Part shown: piece after piece, positions 6,807 through 15,103 of the stretch | How the letters are laid out: the number at the start of each line of letters is the position of its first letter | How positions within the stretch are numbered: position 1 is the first letter of the stretch | Origin: Thermus brockianus | GTDB taxonomy: Bacteria; Deinococcota; Deinococci; Deinococcales; Thermaceae | Reading direction: 5' to 3' | Assembly (NCBI RefSeq): GCF_001880325.1 | Contig: NZ_CP016312.1 | Span: forward strand, 1,798,001-1,862,000 | Length of the DNA stretch: 64,000 bases | The notes under the pieces: generated by a model | The model's database searches: none | What the model saw: the letters and a program-made list of their open reading frames with translations, nothing else | Told to the model about the DNA's origin: nothing | Position numbers and translations under genes: made by a program

Positions 6807-7550
6807 TTACCCTTCCTCTTCGTAGGGCTGGTGGAGCTTCACGGGCTTGCCCCTTAGCCCCGCCCTGAGGTTTAGCCACTCCACGAAGACGGCGAAGCCC
6901 ATGGCGAAGTAGATGTAGCCCTTGGGGATGTGGACCCCGCTCCCTTCCGCCACCAGGGTGAAGCCGATGAGGAGGAGGAAGCTTAGGGCGAGCATCTTCA
7001 CCGTGGGGTGTTCGTTCACGAAGGCGTAGATCCCCTTGGAGGCCAGGAGCATGATGGCTACGGAAATGAGGATGGCCGCCACCATCACGGGCACATAGCG
7101 GGTGAGGCCCACGGCGGTGATCACGGAGTCAATGGAAAAGACGATGTCCAATAGGAGGACCTGGGCGATGACGCTGGCGAAGCTCGGGGCCACCCGCTTC
7201 ACGGCATGCCCCGGTTCCCCTTCCAGCTTCTCGTGGATTTCCTTCACAGACTTGTAGATGAGGAAAAGCCCTCCGGCGATGAGGACCAGGTCCTTCCCCG
7301 TGACCTCGTGGCCCATAAGGGCGAAGAGGGGTTTCTTAAGCGCCATGATCCAGGCGATGGAGAGGAGGAAGAGGATGCGGGTTACCGCCGCCAGGCTTAG
7401 GCCCAGGACCCGGGCCCGGTCCTGCTCCTCCTTGGGAAGCTTGGAAGCCAGGATGCTGATGAAGATCACGTTGTCCACGCCCAGGACCACCTCCAGCACC
7501 GTGAGGGTGACGAGGGCGATCCAGACCTCGGGGTTAGCGAGCCACTCCAT
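6807..7550 (-). CDS. TerC family integral membrane protein
   Basis: The 247-aa protein has seven or so hydrophobic helices and the acidic TerC motifs: [16 protein letters not shown] and [17 protein letters not shown]. TerC-family proteins are linked to tellurite resistance and, in some bacteria, to Mn2+ efflux or metalation of exported proteins. ATG at 7550 is preferred over TTG at 7556: a -10 TATAGT lies 8 nt before it with no Shine-Dalgarno (leaderless). It sits upstream of fumC and near Mn-SOD, so a manganese-related role is possible, but that is inference. Confidence 0.85.
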
Positions 7551-7582
7551 GGGCAAGAACTATACCCCATAAACTGGGGAGC
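7551..7582. promoter_or_regulatory. divergent promoter region terC / YpdA
   Basis: The 32 bp between the starts contain TATAGT (minus strand, 8 nt before terC) and TAAACT (7570-7575, plus strand, 7 nt before the YpdA ATG), plus the short inverted repeat CCCCATAAACTGGGG. Both mRNAs appear nearly leaderless. The repeat may be an operator or chance. Confidence 0.4.
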
Positions 7583-8548
7583 ATGGTGGACGTGTTGGTG
7601 GTGGGGGCTGGACCCGTGGGGCTTGCCGCTGCCATAGAGGCCAAGCGCCTTGGGCTTTCCCACCTGGTTTTGGAAAGGGGCACGGTGGCGGAGACCATCT
7701 ACCGCTTTCCCCGGGACCTGGTCTTCTTCTCCGAGAGCAAGAACATAGAAATCGGCGGACACCCTCTGGTGTCCCACGGCCCCAAGCCCACCCGCAAGGA
7801 GGCCCTCCTCTACTACCAGCGCGTGGCGGAGCGGGAGGCCCTGGGTGTCCTCACCTATACCGAGGTCTTGCGCATCCAGGGCCAGGAGGGGGCCTTCCAG
7901 GTTTTCGCCCGGGAGGGGCGGGGGGAGAGGACCTTTCTCGCCCGCTACGTGGTCCTGGCCACGGGCTACTACGGCAACCCCAACCGCCTTGGGGTGCCCG
8001 GGGAGGACCTGCCCCATGTCCTTTACCGTTACGAGGAAGGGGCGGCCTTTTTCGGCCGCAAGGTGGCGGTGGTGGGGGGGAGCAACTCGGCGGTGGAGGC
8101 GGCCCTGGAGCTTTACCGGGCTGGGGCGAGGGTGACCCTGGTCCACCGGGGGAGGTGGGTGCGCCCCAGCGTCAAGTACTGGCTTCTTCCCGACTTTGAA
8201 AACCGGGTAAAGGAGGGGAGCATAGCGGCCCTTATGGAGGCGGAGGTGGAGGCCATAACCCCTGAGGGCCTTTGGCTTAGGCGCCCCGCGGGGCGGGCGT
8301 TTTTGGAGGCGGACTTCGTGCTGGTCCTCATCGGCTACCGGGCCGAGGACCGCCTTCTCCGGGAAGCCGGGGTGGCTTACGAAGGGGAAACGCCTCGCCT
8401 AAGCCCTGAGTTTGAAACCTCCATCCCGGGCCTTTTCGCCGTGGGTTCCTGCGCCTATGGCCCTGAAACCCGTTCGGTTTTCATAGAAAACGGCCGGGAA
8501 CACGCCAAAGTGGCCCTTGCCGCCATCGCCAGGCGGCTTGCCCCTTGA
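7583..8548 (+). CDS. ypdA: YpdA-type flavoprotein, putative bacillithiol disulfide reductase
   Basis: The 321-aa FAD/NAD(P)H oxidoreductase has an N-terminal FAD-binding motif VVGAGPVGLAAAIEA, an internal NAD(P)H motif VAVVGGSNSAVEAALEL, and a C-terminal FAD contact around GLFAVGSCAYG. There is no thioredoxin-reductase CxxC pair, and the layout matches YpdA, which reduces oxidised bacillithiol. The window also holds bshB1, a bacillithiol synthesis gene, which supports the call. No Shine-Dalgarno is seen and a -10-like TAAACT is 7 nt before the ATG. The -35 of the ilv promoter overlaps its stop region. Confidence 0.75.
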   Translation: MVDVLVVGAGPVGLAAAIEAKRLGLSHLVLERGTVAETIYRFPRDLVFFSESKNIEIGGHPLVSHGPKPTRKEALLYYQRVAEREALGVLTYTEVLRIQGQEGAFQVFAREGRGERTFLARYVVLATGYYGNPNRLGVPGEDLPHVLYRYEEGAAFFGRKVAVVGGSNSAVEAALELYRAGARVTLVHRGRWVRPSVKYWLLPDFENRVKEGSIAALMEAEVEAITPEGLWLRRPAGRAFLEADFVLVLIGYRAEDRLLREAGVAYEGETPRLSPEFETSIPGLFAVGSCAYGPETRSVFIENGREHAKVALAAIARRLAP

Positions 8549-8574
8549 CACCCCCTTGGGGGGCAGGCTATCCT
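8545..8574 (+). promoter_or_regulatory. ilv operon promoter
   Basis: TTGACA (8545-8550, perfect consensus) and TATCCT (8569-8574) are separated by 18 nt. The predicted transcription start, near 8581, lies only about 4 nt before the leader-peptide ATG. The -35 overlaps the stop codon of the upstream flavoprotein gene. Confidence 0.75.
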
Positions 8575-8584
8575 TAGCGGCAAG

Positions 8585-8653
8585 ATGCGCTTCGCTCTAG
8601 CCCTATCCCTAGCCCTGGTCCTAATCGTAGGGCCAGCGGGGGGTAGGGTGTAG
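8585..8653 (+). CDS. ilv leader peptide (attenuation)
   Basis: A 22-codon ORF reads MRFALALSLALVLIVGPAGG followed by RV and stop. Codons 5-15 include five Leu, two Val and one Ile, mostly with CTA or GTA, codons rare in this GC-rich genome. It starts at the 5' end of the predicted transcript and precedes a terminator before ilvB, as in classical branched-chain amino-acid attenuators. The run GGGGGT (8639-8644), in its last codons, can pair with ACCCCC (8674-8679), the 5' side of the terminator stem, giving an antiterminator. I infer that ribosome stalling on scarce charged Leu/Val/Ile tRNA favours read-through. Confidence 0.75.
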   Translation: MRFALALSLALVLIVGPAGGRV

Positions 8654-8671
8654 CGGTTTTAAGGCGCATCC

Positions 8672-8697
8672 AAACCCCCGGGAAACCGGGGGGTTTT
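8672..8697 (+). terminator. ilvB attenuator terminator
   Basis: AAACCCCCGG (8672-8681), a GAAA loop (8682-8685) and CCGGGGGGTTTT (8686-8697) form a strong hairpin with one bulged G, followed by TTTTGGTTT. It lies 20 nt before ilvB and can be excluded by pairing of its 5' arm with the end of the leader-peptide coding region. Confidence 0.75.
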
Positions 8698-8713
8698 GGT
8701 TTAGGAGGGGGCG

Positions 8714-10402
8714 ATGAAGGGAGCGGAGGCACTCTTAAAGGCGCTGGAACGGGAAGGGGTGGAGGTGATCTTCGGCCATCCGGGCGGGGCCATCATGCCC
8801 ACCTACGATGCCCTCTACGACAGCAGGATCCGCCATATTCTGGTGCGCCACGAACAGGGAGGGGTGCACGCGGCCACGGCCTATGCCCGGGCGAGCGGCC
8901 GGGTGGGGGTGGTCATGGCCACCAGTGGCCCCGGGGCGCTGAACCTGGTCACGGGGCTCGCCGACGCCTACATGGACTCCACCCCGGTGGTGGCCATCAC
9001 CGGAAACGTTCCCCGGGCCCTCATCGGCACGGACGCCTTCCAGGAGGCGGACGTCACCGGGGTTACCATGCCCATCACCAAGCACAACTACCTTGTCCAG
9101 GACGTGAACGATCTCCCCCGGGTGGTCAAGGAAGCCTTCCACATCGCCGCCACGGGGCGCCCGGGGCCCGTCCTGATTGACGTTCCCAAGGACGTGCAGC
9201 TCGCCGAGTTTACGGGGGACTTTGACGTGGAGCTGGACCTGCCCGGCTACAAGCCCACCACCAAGGGCCACCCCAAGCAGATTGAGCGGGCCCTGGACGC
9301 CCTGGAAAAGGCGGAAAGACCCATCCTGATGGTGGGGGGTGGGGCCCAGCACGCCCACGCCGAGCTCCTCGCCTTCGCCGAGAAGACCGGCCTGCCCGTC
9401 ATCACCACCCTGATGGGCCTCGGGGCCTTCCCCGGCAACCATCCCCTGTGGCTTGGGATGCCGGGAATGCACGGCACCGTGGCCGCCAACCGGGCCATCC
9501 ACCACGCCGACGTGATCCTGGCCATCGGCCTTCGCTTTGACGACCGGGTCACGGGCAAGGTTTCCCGCTTCGCTCCCCACGCCCACACCATCATCCACGT
9601 GGACATAGACCCGGCGGAGATCGGCAAGGTAGTGCGCACCCACGTCCCCATCGTGGGGGACGCCCGGCTTGTCCTTAAGGAGATGCTCAAGGGGGCGAAG
9701 CCCCTGAAGCTTGCGGGCTGGTGGCGGGAGCTGGAGGAGTGGCGCACCCGCTACCCCTTGCGCTGGAAGCCCAAGCCCCACCTGCAAAGCCAGGAGGTGA
9801 TCCGGGCCTTCTTTGAGGCCACCGGGGGGAATGCCATCGTCACCACGGGGGTGGGGCAGCACCAGATGTTTGCCGCCCAGTTCTTCCCCGTGACCCGGCC
9901 CCGGAGCTTTATCACCTCGGGGGGCCTGGGTACCATGGGGGTGGGGCTTCCCTTCGCCATCGGGGCCAAGTTCGCCCGACCGGACGAGCTCGTCATTGAC
10001 TTTGACGGGGACGGTTCCTTCCAGATGACCCTGCAGGAGCTGGCCACGGTGGTGAAGTACGGCCTGGACGTCAAGGTGGTCATCCTGAATAACGGCTACC
10101 TGGGCATGGTGCGCCAGTGGCAGGACCTCTTCCACGCCAAGCGCTACTCCGAGGTCTACCTGGCGGACTCCAACCCCGACTTCGCCCGCCTGGCCGAGGC
10201 CTACGGCATCCGGGGCATCAAGGTGGAGCGGAAGGAGGACCTGAGGAAGGGCGTGGAGGCGGTCCTGAACGCCGATGGGCCCGTGGTGGCGGAGTTTAAG
10301 GTGTACCACGAGGAAGGGGTCTTCCCCATGATCCCTGCGGGGGGTGCCGCCGAGGACATGATCCTGGAGCACCCCGAGGAGAAGGCGGAGGTGGAGGCGT
10401 GA
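8714..10402 (+). CDS. ilvB: acetolactate synthase (acetohydroxyacid synthase) large subunit
   Basis: The 562-aa ThDP enzyme condenses two pyruvates, or pyruvate with 2-oxobutyrate, as the first common step to Val/Leu and Ile. It shows the N-terminal GHPGGAIMPTYDALYD and HEQGGVHAATAYARASG with the catalytic Glu, the FAD-domain region (GLRFDDRVTGK) and the ThDP/Mg motif (DFDGDGSFQMTLQELAT ... NNGYLGMVRQWQ). GGAGGGGGCG precedes ATG 8714. It overlaps the small subunit as GTGA, which should give equal translation. Expression is probably set by the upstream attenuator. Confidence 0.97.
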   Translation: MKGAEALLKALEREGVEVIFGHPGGAIMPTYDALYDSRIRHILVRHEQGGVHAATAYARASGRVGVVMATSGPGALNLVTGLADAYMDSTPVVAITGNVPRALIGTDAFQEADVTGVTMPITKHNYLVQDVNDLPRVVKEAFHIAATGRPGPVLIDVPKDVQLAEFTGDFDVELDLPGYKPTTKGHPKQIERALDALEKAERPILMVGGGAQHAHAELLAFAEKTGLPVITTLMGLGAFPGNHPLWLGMPGMHGTVAANRAIHHADVILAIGLRFDDRVTGKVSRFAPHAHTIIHVDIDPAEIGKVVRTHVPIVGDARLVLKEMLKGAKPLKLAGWWRELEEWRTRYPLRWKPKPHLQSQEVIRAFFEATGGNAIVTTGVGQHQMFAAQFFPVTRPRSFITSGGLGTMGVGLPFAIGAKFARPDELVIDFDGDGSFQMTLQELATVVKYGLDVKVVILNNGYLGMVRQWQDLFHAKRYSEVYLADSNPDFARLAEAYGIRGIKVERKEDLRKGVEAVLNADGPVVAEFKVYHEEGVFPMIPAGGAAEDMILEHPEEKAEVEA

Positions 10403-10911
10403 GGCACGTGATCTCGGTCCTGGTGCAGGACCATCCCCGGGTTCTGAACCGCATCACAAGCCTGTTCGCCCGCCGGGGCTTCAACCTGGAAAGCCTGGCT
10501 GTGGGGACGACCCACATGCCCGGCCTTTCCCGCATAAGCCTGGTGGTTTCCGGGGATGACCACACCCTGGAGCAGGTGGAAAAGCAACTGAACCGGCTTA
10601 TAGAGGTGCTCAAGGTCACCGACCACTCCGAGCCCCACGTGGAGCGGGAGCTTTGCCTGGTGAAGGTCCACGTGGCCGGGGTGGAGGAGCGGCTTGCGGT
10701 GAAGGACATCCAGGAGGCTTTCCGGGCCCGGGTGGTGGACGTGGCCCAGAAGAGCCTCATCCTGGAGCTCACCGGCGACTCCAAGAAGGTGGATTCCTTT
10801 ATTGAGGCCCTGAGGCCTTATGGGATCCTCGAGGTCATGCGCACCGGGGCCGTGGCCATGAGCCGGGGCGAGAGGACCCTTAAGGTCAGGGAAAAACGGG
10901 AGGCGGTATGA
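10399..10911 (+). CDS. ilvN: acetolactate synthase small (regulatory) subunit
   Basis: The 170-aa protein begins with an ACT domain ([33 protein letters not shown]), which binds valine for feedback control, followed by a C-terminal domain typical of IlvN/IlvH ([20 protein letters not shown]). It stimulates and regulates the IlvB catalytic subunit. The GTG start overlaps the ilvB stop and its own stop overlaps ilvC as ATGA, so the three genes are translationally coupled. The symbol ilvH is used equally for this form. Confidence 0.95.
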
Positions 10912-11921
10912 AGATCTACTACGAGCACGATGCGGACCTAGGCTTCATCCTCGGCAAGAAGGTAGCGGTCTTGGGCTTCGGCTCCCAGGGGCACGCCCAC
11001 GCCCTGAACCTGAAGGAGTCGGGGGTGGACGTGCGGGTAGGCCTGAGGCCCGGTTCCAAGAGCTTCGCCAAGGCGGAGGCGGCGGGGCTCCGCGTGCTTT
11101 CCGTGGCCGAGGCGGTGCGGGAGGCGGACGTGGTCATGGTCCTTCTCCCCGACGAGGCCCAGGGGCGGGTCTACCGGGAGGAGATTGAGCCCAACCTGAG
11201 GGAAGGGGCGGCTTTGGCCTTCGCCCACGGCTTCAACATCCACTTCGGCCAGATCAAGCCCAGGCGGGACCTGGACGTCTGGATGGTGGCCCCCAAGGGG
11301 CCCGGCCACCTGGTCCGGAGCGAGTACCAAAGGGGGAGCGGGGTGCCCGCCCTGGTGGCGGTGCACCAGGACGCCTCGGGGAGCGCCTTCCCCACCGCCT
11401 TGGCCTACGCCAAGGCCATCGGGGCTGCCCGGGCCGGGGTCATCGCCACCACCTTCAAGGACGAGACGGAAACCGACCTCTTCGGGGAGCAGGCGGTGCT
11501 CTGCGGGGGGCTTACCCGGCTCATCCAGGCGGGGTTTGAGACCCTGGTGGAGGCGGGGTACCCGCCGGAGATGGCCTACTTTGAAACCGTGCACGAGGTG
11601 AAGCTCATCGTGGACCTCATCTACGAGGCGGGCTTCGCCGGGATGCGCTACTCCATCTCCAACACCGCCGAGTACGGGGACTACACCCGGGGCGAGGTGG
11701 CGGTGCCGGTGGAGGAGACCAAGCGGCGCATGCGGGAAATCCTCCGGCAGATCCAGACCGGGGAGTTCGCCCGGGAATGGATGCTGGAGAACCAGGTGGG
11801 CCAGCCCGTCCTCGAGGCCAACCGCAAGCGCTGGAAGGCCCATCCCATTGAGGAGGTGGGGGCGAGGCTTCGGGCCATGATGCCCTTCCTCAGGGCCAGG
11901 GTATTGGAGGAAGTCGGGTAA
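10908..11921 (+). CDS. ilvC: ketol-acid reductoisomerase
   Basis: The 337-aa class I enzyme isomerises and reduces acetolactate or acetohydroxybutyrate using NADPH and Mg2+. The dinucleotide loop is [15 protein letters not shown]. Metal-binding acidic residues occur in [17 protein letters not shown] and [16 protein letters not shown]-type helices. [13 protein letters not shown] is the conserved C-terminal knotted-domain motif. It is the last gene of the ilvBNC transcript and is followed after 2 nt by a terminator. Confidence 0.97.
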
Positions 11922-11923
11922 CG

Positions 11924-11949
11924 AAGGGCCCCCCTTGGGGGGCCCTTTT
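11924..11949 (+). terminator. terminator between ilvC and leuA
   Basis: GGGCCCCCC (11926-11934) pairs with GGGGGGCCC (11937-11945) and TTTT follows. The stem is perfect with a minimal loop. It should end most ilvBNC transcripts and leave leuA-cimA to read-through or a separate promoter. Confidence 0.8.
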
Positions 11950-11966
11950 CTGCAAAGGGGGGAACG

Positions 11967-13523
11967 ATGGAGCGGCACATCCGAATCTTTGACACCACGC
12001 TTAGGGACGGCGAGCAGAGCCCAGGGGTGGCGCTTTCCTTGGACCAGAAGCTGGAAATCGCCCATGCCCTGGCCCGGCTCAACGTGGACATCATTGAGGC
12101 GGGCTTTCCCGTATCCGGGCCTTTGGAGTTTGAGGCGGTGCGGCGCATCGCCACGGAGGTAAAGGGCCCCATCATCGCCGCCTTGGCCCGCACCCACACC
12201 CTGGACATTGACCAGGCGGCCAAGGCCTTGGAGAAGGCGGAAAAGCCAAGGATTCACGTCTTCACCTCCGCCTCCAAGATCCACCTGGAGTACATGCTGA
12301 AGAAGACGGAGGAGGAGGTCTTGGAGATGGCGGACCAAATGGTCCGCTACGCCCGCCGCTACGTGGACGACGTGGAGTTTTCCGCCCAGGACGTGATGCG
12401 GGCGGACTGGGACTTCGTGAAGCGGCTTTACGAGGTGGCCATAGAGGCGGGGGCCACCACCATCAACATCCCCGACACCACGGGCTACGGCACGCCTGGG
12501 GAGTACGGGGCCCTCATCCGCCGCATCCGCGACGAGGTGGTGCGGGGGCGGGATGTCATCATCTCCACCCACACCCACGACGACCTGGGCCTCGCCGTGG
12601 CCAACGCCCTGGCCGGCGTGGAGAACGGGGCGGGGCAGGTGGAGTGCACCATCAACGGCATTGGGGAGCGGGCGGGGAACACCTCCTTGGAGGAGGTGGT
12701 CATGGCGCTCTACGTGCGCCGGGACTGGTACAAGGCCTACACCCAGATCAACACCCGGGAGATCTACCGGGTTTCCCGCCTGGTGGAGCGCTACACGGGG
12801 ATGCCCGTCCCCCCCAACAAGGCCATCGTGGGGGACAACGCCTTCGCCCACGAGTCCGGCATCCACCAGGACGGCGTCCTGAAGCACCGGGCCACCTACG
12901 AGATCATGGACGCCGAGCTCATCGGCCGCCGGCCCGCGGTGATCGTCCTGGGCAAGCACTCGGGGCGGGCAGCCTTCAGGAAGGCCCTGGAGGATCTGGG
13001 CTACAAGGACCTCTCCGAGGAGGAGCTGAAGAAGCTCTTCGCCCGCTTCAAGGAGATCGCCGAGAAAAAGGGTCCCCTTTCCGCCGAGGAGCTCCAGGCC
13101 CTGGTGGAAAGCGAGCGCGAGCCCGCCTCCCACTTCTTCACCCTGGAACACGTTCAGTTCTTCTCGGGCTCGGGCCTCTTGCCCACGGCCACGGTGAAGG
13201 TGAGGACCCCCGAGGGGGAGCGGGTGGCCACCCACACAGGGGATGGGCCGGTGGACGCCGTGTACAAGGCCATCCAGGAGGCCATCGGTCTCAGGCCCGA
13301 GCTGGAGCTCTACCGGGTGGAGGCCATCACGGGGAGCACCGAGGCCTTGGGCCAGGTGACGGTGCGGCTCCGGCTGGGTGAGCTCCAGGCGGTGGGGGTG
13401 GGGGTTTCCCCGGACATCATTGAGGCCAGCGCCTTGGCCTTCTTGGACGCCGCCGGGAAGCTGGTCTCGGGCCGGGCCACCCGGCATCCCCCTTCCATCG
13501 CCGAGGTCCAGCGCGGGGTCTAG
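11967..13523 (+). CDS. leuA: 2-isopropylmalate synthase
   Basis: The 518-aa enzyme condenses 2-oxoisovalerate with acetyl-CoA, the committed leucine step. The TIM-barrel domain begins IFDTTLRDGEQSPGVALSL and has the metal HxH (ISTHTHDDLGLAVANALAG) and NGIGERAGNTSLEEV. The C-terminal part (from about residue 390) is the LeuA allosteric domain, which binds leucine. ATG at 11967 follows AAAGGGGGGAACG. It lies right after the ilvC terminator and only 2 bp before cimA. In Thermus the lysine-pathway homocitrate synthase is a paralogue, but the C-terminal allosteric domain and location favour LeuA. Confidence 0.93.
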   Translation: MERHIRIFDTTLRDGEQSPGVALSLDQKLEIAHALARLNVDIIEAGFPVSGPLEFEAVRRIATEVKGPIIAALARTHTLDIDQAAKALEKAEKPRIHVFTSASKIHLEYMLKKTEEEVLEMADQMVRYARRYVDDVEFSAQDVMRADWDFVKRLYEVAIEAGATTINIPDTTGYGTPGEYGALIRRIRDEVVRGRDVIISTHTHDDLGLAVANALAGVENGAGQVECTINGIGERAGNTSLEEVVMALYVRRDWYKAYTQINTREIYRVSRLVERYTGMPVPPNKAIVGDNAFAHESGIHQDGVLKHRATYEIMDAELIGRRPAVIVLGKHSGRAAFRKALEDLGYKDLSEEELKKLFARFKEIAEKKGPLSAEELQALVESEREPASHFFTLEHVQFFSGSGLLPTATVKVRTPEGERVATHTGDGPVDAVYKAIQEAIGLRPELELYRVEAITGSTEALGQVTVRLRLGELQAVGVGVSPDIIEASALAFLDAAGKLVSGRATRHPPSIAEVQRGV

Positions 13524-13525
13524 GC

Positions 13526-15103
13526 ATGGTGGAGATCCTGGACACCACGCTCCGGGACGGCACCCAAGGGGAGGGGGTAAGCCTCTCCGTGGACGATAAG
13601 GTGGCCATCGCCAAGCGGCTTGCCGCCTTTGGCGTCCACGTGATTGAGGGGGGCTGGCCCGGCTCCAACCCCAAGGACGCCGAGTTCTTCGCCCGCATGA
13701 AGGGGGTGGACCTGGGGGCGGCCCGGCTCGCCGCCTTTGGGGCTACCCGCCGCAAGGGGCTCGTGCCGGAGGAGGACCCCTCCGTCCTCGCCCTCCTGGA
13801 GGCGGAAACCCCGGTGGTGGTCCTCTTCGGCAAGAGCTGGACCCTGCATGTCCTCGAGGCCCTGGAGACCACCTTGGAGGAAAACCTCCACATGATCCGG
13901 GACACGGTGGCCTTCTTCGCCAGGAGGGGAAAGCGGGTCATCTACGATGCCGAGCACTTCTTTGACGGCTACAAGGAGGACCCCGCCTACGCCCTCGCCA
14001 CCCTGGAGGCCGCCCGGGAGGGGGGAGCGGACACCCTGGTCCTTTGCGACACCAACGGGGGAAGCCTTCCCGAGGAGGTCTACGCCATCACCAAGGCCGT
14101 GGTGGAGCGCTTTCCCGGGGTTAGGGTGGGCATCCATCCCCACAACGACGCCGAGCTCGCCGTGGCCAACGCCCTGGCGGCGGTGCGGGCCGGGGCTACC
14201 CACGCCCAGGGCACCATCAACGGCTACGGGGAGCGGTGCGGCAACCTCAACCTCACGAGCTTCCTCCCCACCCTGGTCTTCAAGTACGGCATCCCCGCCC
14301 TTCCCCCGGAAAGGCTGAAGGGCCTAAAGGAGCTCTCTCACTTCGTGGACGAGCGGGCCAACCTCACCCCGAACCGCCGCGCCCCCTACGTGGGGGAGGC
14401 GGCCTTCGCCCACAAGGCGGGGGTGCACGTGTCCGCTGTCCTCAAAAACCCCCGCACCTACGAGCACATCCCCCCGGAGTGGGTGGGGAATACCCGCCGC
14501 TTCCTGGTCTCGGATGTCTCGGGCCGCTCCAACCTCCTCGCCAAGCTCCAGGAGCTCGGGGTGGACCTCTCCAAGGAGGAGGCCAAGCGCCTCTTGGACG
14601 AGGTGAAGGCCCTGGAGTACGAGGGCTACGCCTTTGAGGGGGCGGAGGCGAGCTTCTACCTCCTGGCCCACCGGCTCAAGGGCGGGGCCCTGCCTTTTAG
14701 CGTGGAGGGGTTTAGCGTCTTCGTCCACGGCTCGGGCCTGGACACCGCTTGGGCCGAGGCCACGGTGCGGGTGCGGGTGGGGGAGAGCCTCCAGCACACC
14801 GCCGCCGAGAGCCCTTTCGGCCCCGTTTCCGCCCTGGACCGGGCCTTCCGCAAGGCGGTGTTGCAGTTTTACCCGGAGCTCGCCGAGGTGGAGCTCACGG
14901 ACTACAAGGTGCGCATCCTCTCGGGCCAGGAAGCGGGCACCAACTCGGGGGTGCGGGTGATGACCGAGATGCGGCGGGGGGAGGAGCGTTTCGCCACGGT
15001 GGGGGCCAGCGAGAACATCCTCGAGGCCTCCCTCAAGGCCCTCACGGACGGCTACGCCTACGCCCTCCTCTTCGCCCGGGCCCCTACGCCCAAGGAAGCC
15101 TGA
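13526..15103 (+). CDS. cimA: (R)-citramalate synthase
   Basis: The 525-aa LeuA relative begins VEILDTTLRDGTQGEGVSLS and has GIHPHNDAELAVANALAAV and NGYGERCGNLNL, with a C-terminal allosteric domain. The TQGEG form of the N-terminal motif and the overall layout are those of CimA, which makes citramalate from pyruvate and acetyl-CoA, providing 2-oxobutyrate for isoleucine without threonine. It lies 2 bp after leuA, so the pair divides pyruvate-derived carbon between Leu and Ile. Its 3' end overlaps the convergent Uma2 gene by 20 bp. Confidence 0.9.
   Translation: MVEILDTTLRDGTQGEGVSLSVDDKVAIAKRLAAFGVHVIEGGWPGSNPKDAEFFARMKGVDLGAARLAAFGATRRKGLVPEEDPSVLALLEAETPVVVLFGKSWTLHVLEALETTLEENLHMIRDTVAFFARRGKRVIYDAEHFFDGYKEDPAYALATLEAAREGGADTLVLCDTNGGSLPEEVYAITKAVVERFPGVRVGIHPHNDAELAVANALAAVRAGATHAQGTINGYGERCGNLNLTSFLPTLVFKYGIPALPPERLKGLKELSHFVDERANLTPNRRAPYVGEAAFAHKAGVHVSAVLKNPRTYEHIPPEWVGNTRRFLVSDVSGRSNLLAKLQELGVDLSKEEAKRLLDEVKALEYEGYAFEGAEASFYLLAHRLKGGALPFSVEGFSVFVHGSGLDTAWAEATVRVRVGESLQHTAAESPFGPVSALDRAFRKAVLQFYPELAEVELTDYKVRILSGQEAGTNSGVRVMTEMRRGEERFATVGASENILEASLKALTDGYAYALLFARAPTPKEA

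Follow-up and report, generated by a model that had tools for sequence, protein, structure and literature searches.

A putative ribosome-mediated attenuator with a predicted near-leaderless leader ORF preceding ilvBNC-leuA-cimA in Thermus and related families

The ilvB locus and its leader

The window, a stretch of 64,000 nucleotides, belongs to a Thermus genome of 2,388,273 bases (G000) and contains at 8545-8713 an element that lies between ypdA (7583-8548) and the genes ilvB-ilvN-ilvC-leuA-cimA (8714-15103), which are named here after their NCBIfam profiles (table 1). The element is composed of a promoter, a short ORF (ilvL) and a terminator. The promoter at 8545-8574 is as the sequence-only reading had described it, and TTGACA-18-TATCCT is the sole promoter-like site in 7500-13500, where 0.4 such sites are expected. 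Two details had been missing from that reading: the overlap of the -35 box with the ypdA stop codon, and the complementarity between GAUGCGC and GCGCAUC.

The leader ORF begins with ATG at 8585, 10 nt past the -10 box, and ends with TAG at 8651-8653. Codons 5-15 read L A L S L A L V L I V, and the earlier count of five Leu, two Val and one Ile in a 22-codon frame is thus correct. Transcription probably starts near 8581-8582, so that only 3-4 nt would precede the leader AUG. The script-scored set comprises 87 loci, whose -35 box is TTGACA in 84 and TTGACG in three. The distance from the -10 box to the start codon is 7-12 nt throughout this set, with 10 nt in nearly all leaders of Thermaceae, too short a gap to accommodate a Shine-Dalgarno sequence. 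No such leader was found within 600 bases upstream of ilvD.

Table 1. Features of the ilvB locus (window positions) and similar mini-ORFs elsewhere in the same genome (positions with the prefix G000:C1).
Feature	Position	Strand	Basis or remark
-35 box TTGACA, overlaps ypdA stop codon (8546-8548)	8545-8550	+	sequence
-10 box TATCCT, 18-nt spacer from -35	8569-8574	+	sequence
Start-codon strand GAUGCGC	8584-8590	+	start/anti-start helix
Leader ORF ilvL, predicted near-leaderless, MRFALALSLALVLIVGPAGGRV, 22 codons	8585-8653	+	control codons 5-15
Region 1 and apical hairpin, control codons	8600-8636	+	MFE structure
Region 2, GGGGGGUAGGGUGUAGC, antiterminator 5' half	8638-8654	+	last ORF codons and stop
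Anti-start strand GCGCAUC	8664-8670	+	complementary to GAUGCGC
Region 3, antiterminator 3' half and terminator 5' arm	8674-8681	+	folding
Terminator: 7 G-C pairs, GAAA loop, then G-TTTT	8675-8697	+	sequence
AGGAGG, ribosome-binding site of ilvB	8703-8708	+	sequence
ilvB, acetolactate synthase large subunit	8714-10402	+	TIGR00118, 802.6 bits
ilvN, acetolactate synthase small subunit	10399-10911	+	TIGR00119
ilvC, ketol-acid reductoisomerase	10908-11921	+	TIGR00465
leuA, 2-isopropylmalate synthase	11967-13523	+	TIGR00973
cimA, citramalate synthase	13526-15103	+	TIGR00977
mgtE (magnesium transporter) mini-ORF MLGPLPSSRWR and hairpin	G000:C1:259547-259588	+	L183
lysJ-like aminotransferase mini-ORF MAARRKP, Arg and Lys codons	G000:C1:709800-709840	+	L186
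hcs (homocitrate synthase, lysine pathway) KK mini-ORF MLARAKKLGRRGVG	G000:C1:815621-815662	-	L187
trpE mini-ORF MALSSALWWPG, two Trp codons, and terminator	G000:C1:1310300-1310900		L181, this genome
aroG (DAHP synthase) Phe/Tyr-rich near-leaderless mini-ORF MRRLGRYFGFYYPAGGALRSA	G000:C1:1546998-1547040	-	L193
leuC Leu mini-ORF MRRGILLDLGRAGPV and terminator	G000:C1:1587286-1587325	-	L179, L194
aspS2 (aspartate-tRNA(Asn) ligase) mini-ORF MRPRLLNNG and C/G-rich hairpin	G000:C1:1619290-1619331	-	L195

The terminator stem pairs 8675-8681 with 8686-8692. Its G-C stem and GNRA-type loop are as described before, and the T-rich tail is there too in the form G-TTTT-GG-TTT, that is, with an interrupted T tract (TTTTGGTTT). 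A hairpin with a T-rich stretch, from which termination is predicted, is present in all 88 leaders analysed. The fold of the whole leader is markedly stable (z -4.8; none of 200 shuffles as stable), and in the ribosome-free MFE structure 8600-8609 pair with 8640-8649, and 8613-8623 with 8628-8636. In the competing antiterminator, region 2 up to the stop codon pairs with 8663-8679, giving a duplex of -23.7 kcal/mol; the previously noted match between GGGGGT (8639-8644) and ACCCCC (8674-8679) is contained in it, and the possible pairing is longer.

Conservation and codon content of the leader

Of the 89 ilvB loci for which upstream DNA is available, from five families, 88 carry the element before ilvB, and the comparison yielded no leaders lacking both the peptide and the alternative pairing, the finding that the sequence-only reading had named as evidence against itself. 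All 50 Thermaceae genomes have ilvB, and the element is intact at 48 of 49 loci with upstream DNA; at the exception, L050, which comes from a genome 65% complete, it is present with indels in the ORF. Outside Thermaceae it was found at 40/40 ilvB loci read, from four further families, these being 40 of the 56 genomes with an ilvB match. The phylum search yielded 111 genomes, those listed belong to the same order or nearer, and Deinococcaceae fall outside the sample. The set of 88 leaders used below omits L048 (no upstream DNA) and L050 (ORF indels), and the start codon was picked by hand in L063, L064 and L046. A covariance model built on the Thermaceae leaders has a single strong match, located immediately before ilvB, in each of 49 of the 50 Thermaceae genomes (in the remaining genome, G020, the contig ends there), and its other matches in these genomes score at most 40.5 bits, compared with 71 or more. 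Judged from sequence, the putative attenuator is conserved across a whole bacterial order.

Some leaders depart from the common pattern. The leader ORF of a Meiothermus-like genome (L046:1051-1203) has lost one base at its end, so that its stop is a UGA slightly downstream instead of UAG, and region 2 is largely intact despite the deletion. In five leaders of family f5 (L068, L069, L070, L073 and L074) the mini-ORF ends within the first G run or directly after it (for example GGGGTAA), and L069 and L070 in addition have few Leu/Ile/Val codons and no cluster of three within six codons. In these five leaders the switch might have changed or be in decay.

At least three Leu/Ile/Val codons occur within six consecutive codons in 86 of the 88 leaders, and the mean fraction of such codons is 0.44 in the 26 Thermus leaders against a background of 0.26. 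In the window ORF as a whole they make up 9 of 22 codons, which is not significant alone (P 0.09); the significance of the enrichment comes from the comparison across genomes. The choice among synonymous codons is more distinctive. Four of the five Leu codons of the window ORF are CTA (P about 3e-5), whereas CTA accounts for 4.9% of Leu codons in the 57 ORFs of the window; the earlier description of the control codons as mostly uncommon CTA and GTA therefore holds for Leu, but only one of the two Val codons within codons 5-15 is GTA (3.4% of Val codons in the window genes). In the leaders overall CTA makes up 210 of 383 Leu codons (55%) and GTA 102 of 271 Val codons, compared with 14/1331 and 7/1374, respectively, in the ilvB genes of Thermus. 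The CTA/GTA bias of the leaders agrees with the notion, derived from work on E. coli, that tRNA charging is sensed most sharply at rarely used codons. That these codons merely serve the hairpin between regions 1 and 2 was considered and ruled out, because they make the ORF fold weaker in four of the eight leaders tested and stronger in the other four: when Leu, Val and Ile codons were redrawn from genome usage, the fold was at least as stable in 274-292 of 300 draws in L029, L057, L063 and L087, but in only 1-60 of 300 in L001, L009, L033 and L052.

These observations bear on the idea that the product of the ORF is a small hydrophobic protein with a function of its own and that the terminator merely ends the transcript of this ORF. 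The product has the appearance of a signal peptide and is well conserved inside Thermus; across families, however, peptide length, N-terminus and hydrophobic pattern differ completely (MKNAPIIVVVVALSKGVAA, MTSDPHAYGWIVVLGLGLRGRTA), and what persists is the Leu/Ile/Val codons, the use of CTA and GTA, a G-rich ORF end that is paired with the arm of the terminator, and the location upstream of ilvB. We consider a functional protein very unlikely.

The antiterminator co-varies in some families. In family f3 its two strands are GGGGGUCGC/GCGACCCCC in L087 and L088, GAGGGUCGC/GCGACCCUC in L086 and CCGAGGGUCGC/GCGACCCUCGG in L089. A leader's own pairing ranks in the best 10% of cross-group pairings in 4/4 leaders of f3, 2/2 of family f2, 5/5 of genus g13, 6/7 of genus g14 and 7/21 of f5. 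The corresponding numbers are only 0/26 in Thermus and 1/17 in Meiothermus, since their plain runs of G and of C pair indiscriminately.

The complementarity between the start codon and the sequence abutting the terminator concerns a second helix. The anti-start strand is also the upstream extension of region 3, as which it pairs with GGUGU-A-GC of region 2. From 48 Thermaceae leaders RNAalifold chooses a helix between GAUGC at the start codon and GCAUC just before the terminator, and the two leaders starting with GUG (L028, L035) carry the matching change CACC in the anti-start strand. Over 47 distinct Thermaceae rows, 92.1% of cells are paired against 90.8% in shuffles (3/500), a modest excess, and at most 53.9% when the strands are slid. 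The pairing falls in the best 5% of shuffles in all 26 Thermus leaders and in 6/7 of genus g14, which achieves the same pairing with other sequence (GAUGCCGC with GCGGCAUC), but in only 3/17 of Meiothermus, 0/5 of g13, 2/21 of f5 and 0/4 of f3. The helix stands out in Thermus and g14 and not in the other groups, and is not proposed as a feature of the whole order. Speculatively, the anti-start strand closes the start codon of the terminated RNA and so helps to keep termination the default. Comparable self-inhibition of leader translation occurs in the trp leader of E. coli, and we know of no start/anti-start helix in the ilvBNC leader of Corynebacterium glutamicum.

Ribosome position, proposed mechanism and competing explanations

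The effect of a translating ribosome was modelled by a mask whose leading edge lies 13 nt downstream of the first base of the A-site codon, with folding at 65 C. With the ribosome at codons 7-14 of the window leader and the 3' arm of the terminator not yet made, 0.82-0.89 of the ensemble has the 5' arm captured; the sequestered fraction is only 0.10 with the ribosome at the stop codon and 0.06 without a ribosome. The equilibrium probability of the terminator is 0.10-0.21 at codons 9-12 and 0.98 at the stop. The window profile is robust, being the same for leading-edge offsets of 10-16. Stalling within codons 5-15, as proposed originally, thus narrows in the model to codons 7-14 as the effective ones, and a stall at Val15 comes too late.

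Extended to the 88 leaders, the model gives a mean sequestration at Leu/Ile/Val codons that exceeds the value at the stop by at least 0.4 in 66 leaders, compared with 15 when codon order is shuffled and 3 when it is reversed. These per-codon profiles, with shuffled and reversed order as controls, replaced a first metric that used the last Leu/Ile/Val codon at least four codons before the stop; its contrast was weak (2/88 at 37 C, 19/88 at 65 C), because that codon is often too close to region 2. Within the decision zone 53% of codons (608 of 1150) are Leu/Ile/Val codons, compared with 24% (182 of 767) outside it. The previously proposed logic, in which a stalled ribosome permits read-through and a ribosome at the stop causes termination, is therefore reproduced in silico, and the outcome depends on codon order. 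Only 41/88 leaders have at least one Leu/Ile/Val stall at which the terminator is disfavoured at equilibrium, and the remaining ones would need kinetic trapping, with the antiterminator forming first. For family f3 (L086-L089) the model gives read-through without a ribosome, unlike the window.

Taken together, the element very probably is a ribosome-mediated transcription attenuator of ilvBNC-leuA-cimA. We infer the stalling, the termination in vivo and the identity of the amino acids that act, and the mechanism could be envisaged as follows. Transcription would begin 3-4 nt upstream of the leader AUG and the ribosome would load at an almost bare 5' end. When charged Leu-, Val- or Ile-tRNA is scarce, the ribosome would stall in codons 7-14 and cover region 1, leaving region 2 (8638-8654) free to pair with 8664-8679; no terminator would then form and the operon would be transcribed. 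A ribosome that reaches the stop at 8651 would cover region 2, so that the hairpin 8675-8692 could form and transcription would stop. Without a ribosome region 1 would fold onto region 2, and termination would be the default in this genome. The terminated RNA of Thermus might also close its own start codon, GAUGCGC pairing with GCGCAUC and probably blocking re-initiation, a step that is speculative.

The alternative structures by themselves would also permit control that does not involve leader translation, by a T-box or riboswitch, or by an RNA-binding protein, operating through the same hairpins. T-boxes do exist in the phylum: the part of PMC2494555 drawn on here gives two in Deinococcus radiodurans, one of three Deinococcus/Thermus genomes searched. 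On the other hand, no Rfam family matches the site (a tRNA elsewhere is the single match of the window, and no T-box reached the gathering score), and neither the ORF with its rare Leu and Val codons nor the location of these codons before region 2 would find an explanation; such control is even less probable than a functional small protein. The least probable reading of all, in which a constitutive or promoter-regulated terminator damps expression and the mini-ORF and the pairing are relics, could appeal to the two of 88 leaders with few Leu/Ile/Val codons, but it is opposed by conservation in five families, the codon bias, the co-varying antiterminator and the dependence on codon order.

Known systems and similar mini-ORFs in Thermus

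Ribosome-mediated attenuation of the kind proposed here has well-known counterparts. The ilvGMEDA, ilvBN and leuABCD attenuators of E. coli combine control codons with a mutually exclusive antiterminator and terminator, as in Thermus, and E. coli leuL also uses rare CTA codons; the E. coli leaders are translated from a ribosome-binding site, whereas in Thermus the leader would begin close to the bare 5' end of the RNA. Within the genus, leader-peptide attenuation is known for other amino acids, at the lysine gene cluster and trpE of Thermus thermophilus, although neither case was found in the open-licence literature searched. The same search returned no description of an ilv leader in Thermus or Deinococcus, an absence that carries little weight because only open-licence papers were covered.

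A close likeness is to the ilvBNC attenuator of C. glutamicum (leader MTIIRLVVVTARRLP; Morbach et al. 2000, Neshat et al. 2014), which belongs to the same operon type and has a branched-chain leader peptide, made, according to a title cited in PMC8709942, without a ribosome-binding site; it comes from another phylum and its peptide has no visible sequence relation to that of Thermus. The excerpted text of PMC8079986 describes ilvL of Streptomyces lividans TK24 (MRTRILVLGKRVG) as leaderless, with Ile/Leu/Val codons and a terminator before ilvBHC, and mentions other leaderless leaders in that genome; ilvL is shorter than the Thermus leader, has fewer control codons and likewise belongs to another phylum. 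A near-leaderless leader is thus not the unusual twist that it had been taken for. In Sinorhizobium meliloti the trpL attenuator RNA (rnTrpL) starts at the AUG of the leader ORF (PMC7298713, in part); this system concerns tryptophan in another phylum, with a small RNA and a peptide that both work in trans. Leaderless genes are abundant in Deinococcus-Thermus genomes, at about 40% by the section of PMC3160421 consulted, and a 2010 survey (PMC2965389), in the portion used, counted systems with leader peptides in Proteobacteria and Actinobacteria, with Firmicutes as a new addition, and in no other phylum. The function, and also a leader free of a ribosome-binding site, are already known at the same operon in Actinobacteria, and the papers searched report no ilv case from the phylum of Thermus.

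The ilvB leader has companions in the same genome. A search for TTGAC, TAnnnT and a near-leaderless ATG finds 19 places, and none with the pattern reversed; several of the 19 are, besides ilvB, mini-ORFs with cognate codons before amino-acid genes (table 1). The leuC mini-ORF is present at 27/27 Thermus loci and that of aroG, of FGFY or YGFY type, also at 27/27 (L239-L265), while the KK mini-ORF of hcs is present at 26/27 (L266-L292), the missing one being L291, where the match starts at residue 135. Aspartate-tRNA(Asn) ligase, encoded by aspS2, is the non-discriminating enzyme of tRNA-dependent Asn synthesis. A mini-ORF with at least one Asn codon precedes its gene at all 30 Thermaceae loci read (L209-L238), out of 50 genomes with a match, and it is possible, from these codons, that this leader is an Asn-sensing attenuator.

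Because cognate mini-ORFs are conserved before amino-acid genes, the design appears to serve Thermus as an amino-acid switch of general use, and the set of leuC, aroG, hcs and aspS2, with trpE in this genome, looks like a regulon as far as sequence comparison can indicate. A broader reading, to which we give slightly less than an even chance, combines two aspects. First, leaderless attenuators would run most amino-acid biosynthesis in Thermus, and probably in the order, with leuC (Leu), trpE (WW), aroG (FGFY), hcs (KK) and aspS2 (Asn) besides ilvB; second, the ilvB start codon would itself be a switch strand that locks out ribosomes when paired with the element next to the terminator, an element that otherwise lengthens the antiterminator. 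If this is true, each terminated ilvB transcript in Thermus would lock out new ribosomes. The ilvB leader would represent ribosome-mediated attenuation on a near-leaderless mRNA, conserved across an order, and its compactness, about 110 nt in total, raises the question of how ribosome loading at a bare 5' end matches the pace of RNA polymerase. For a phylum that serves as a thermophile model, it would provide a concrete, ancient and testable amino-acid sensor that operates without a regulatory protein.
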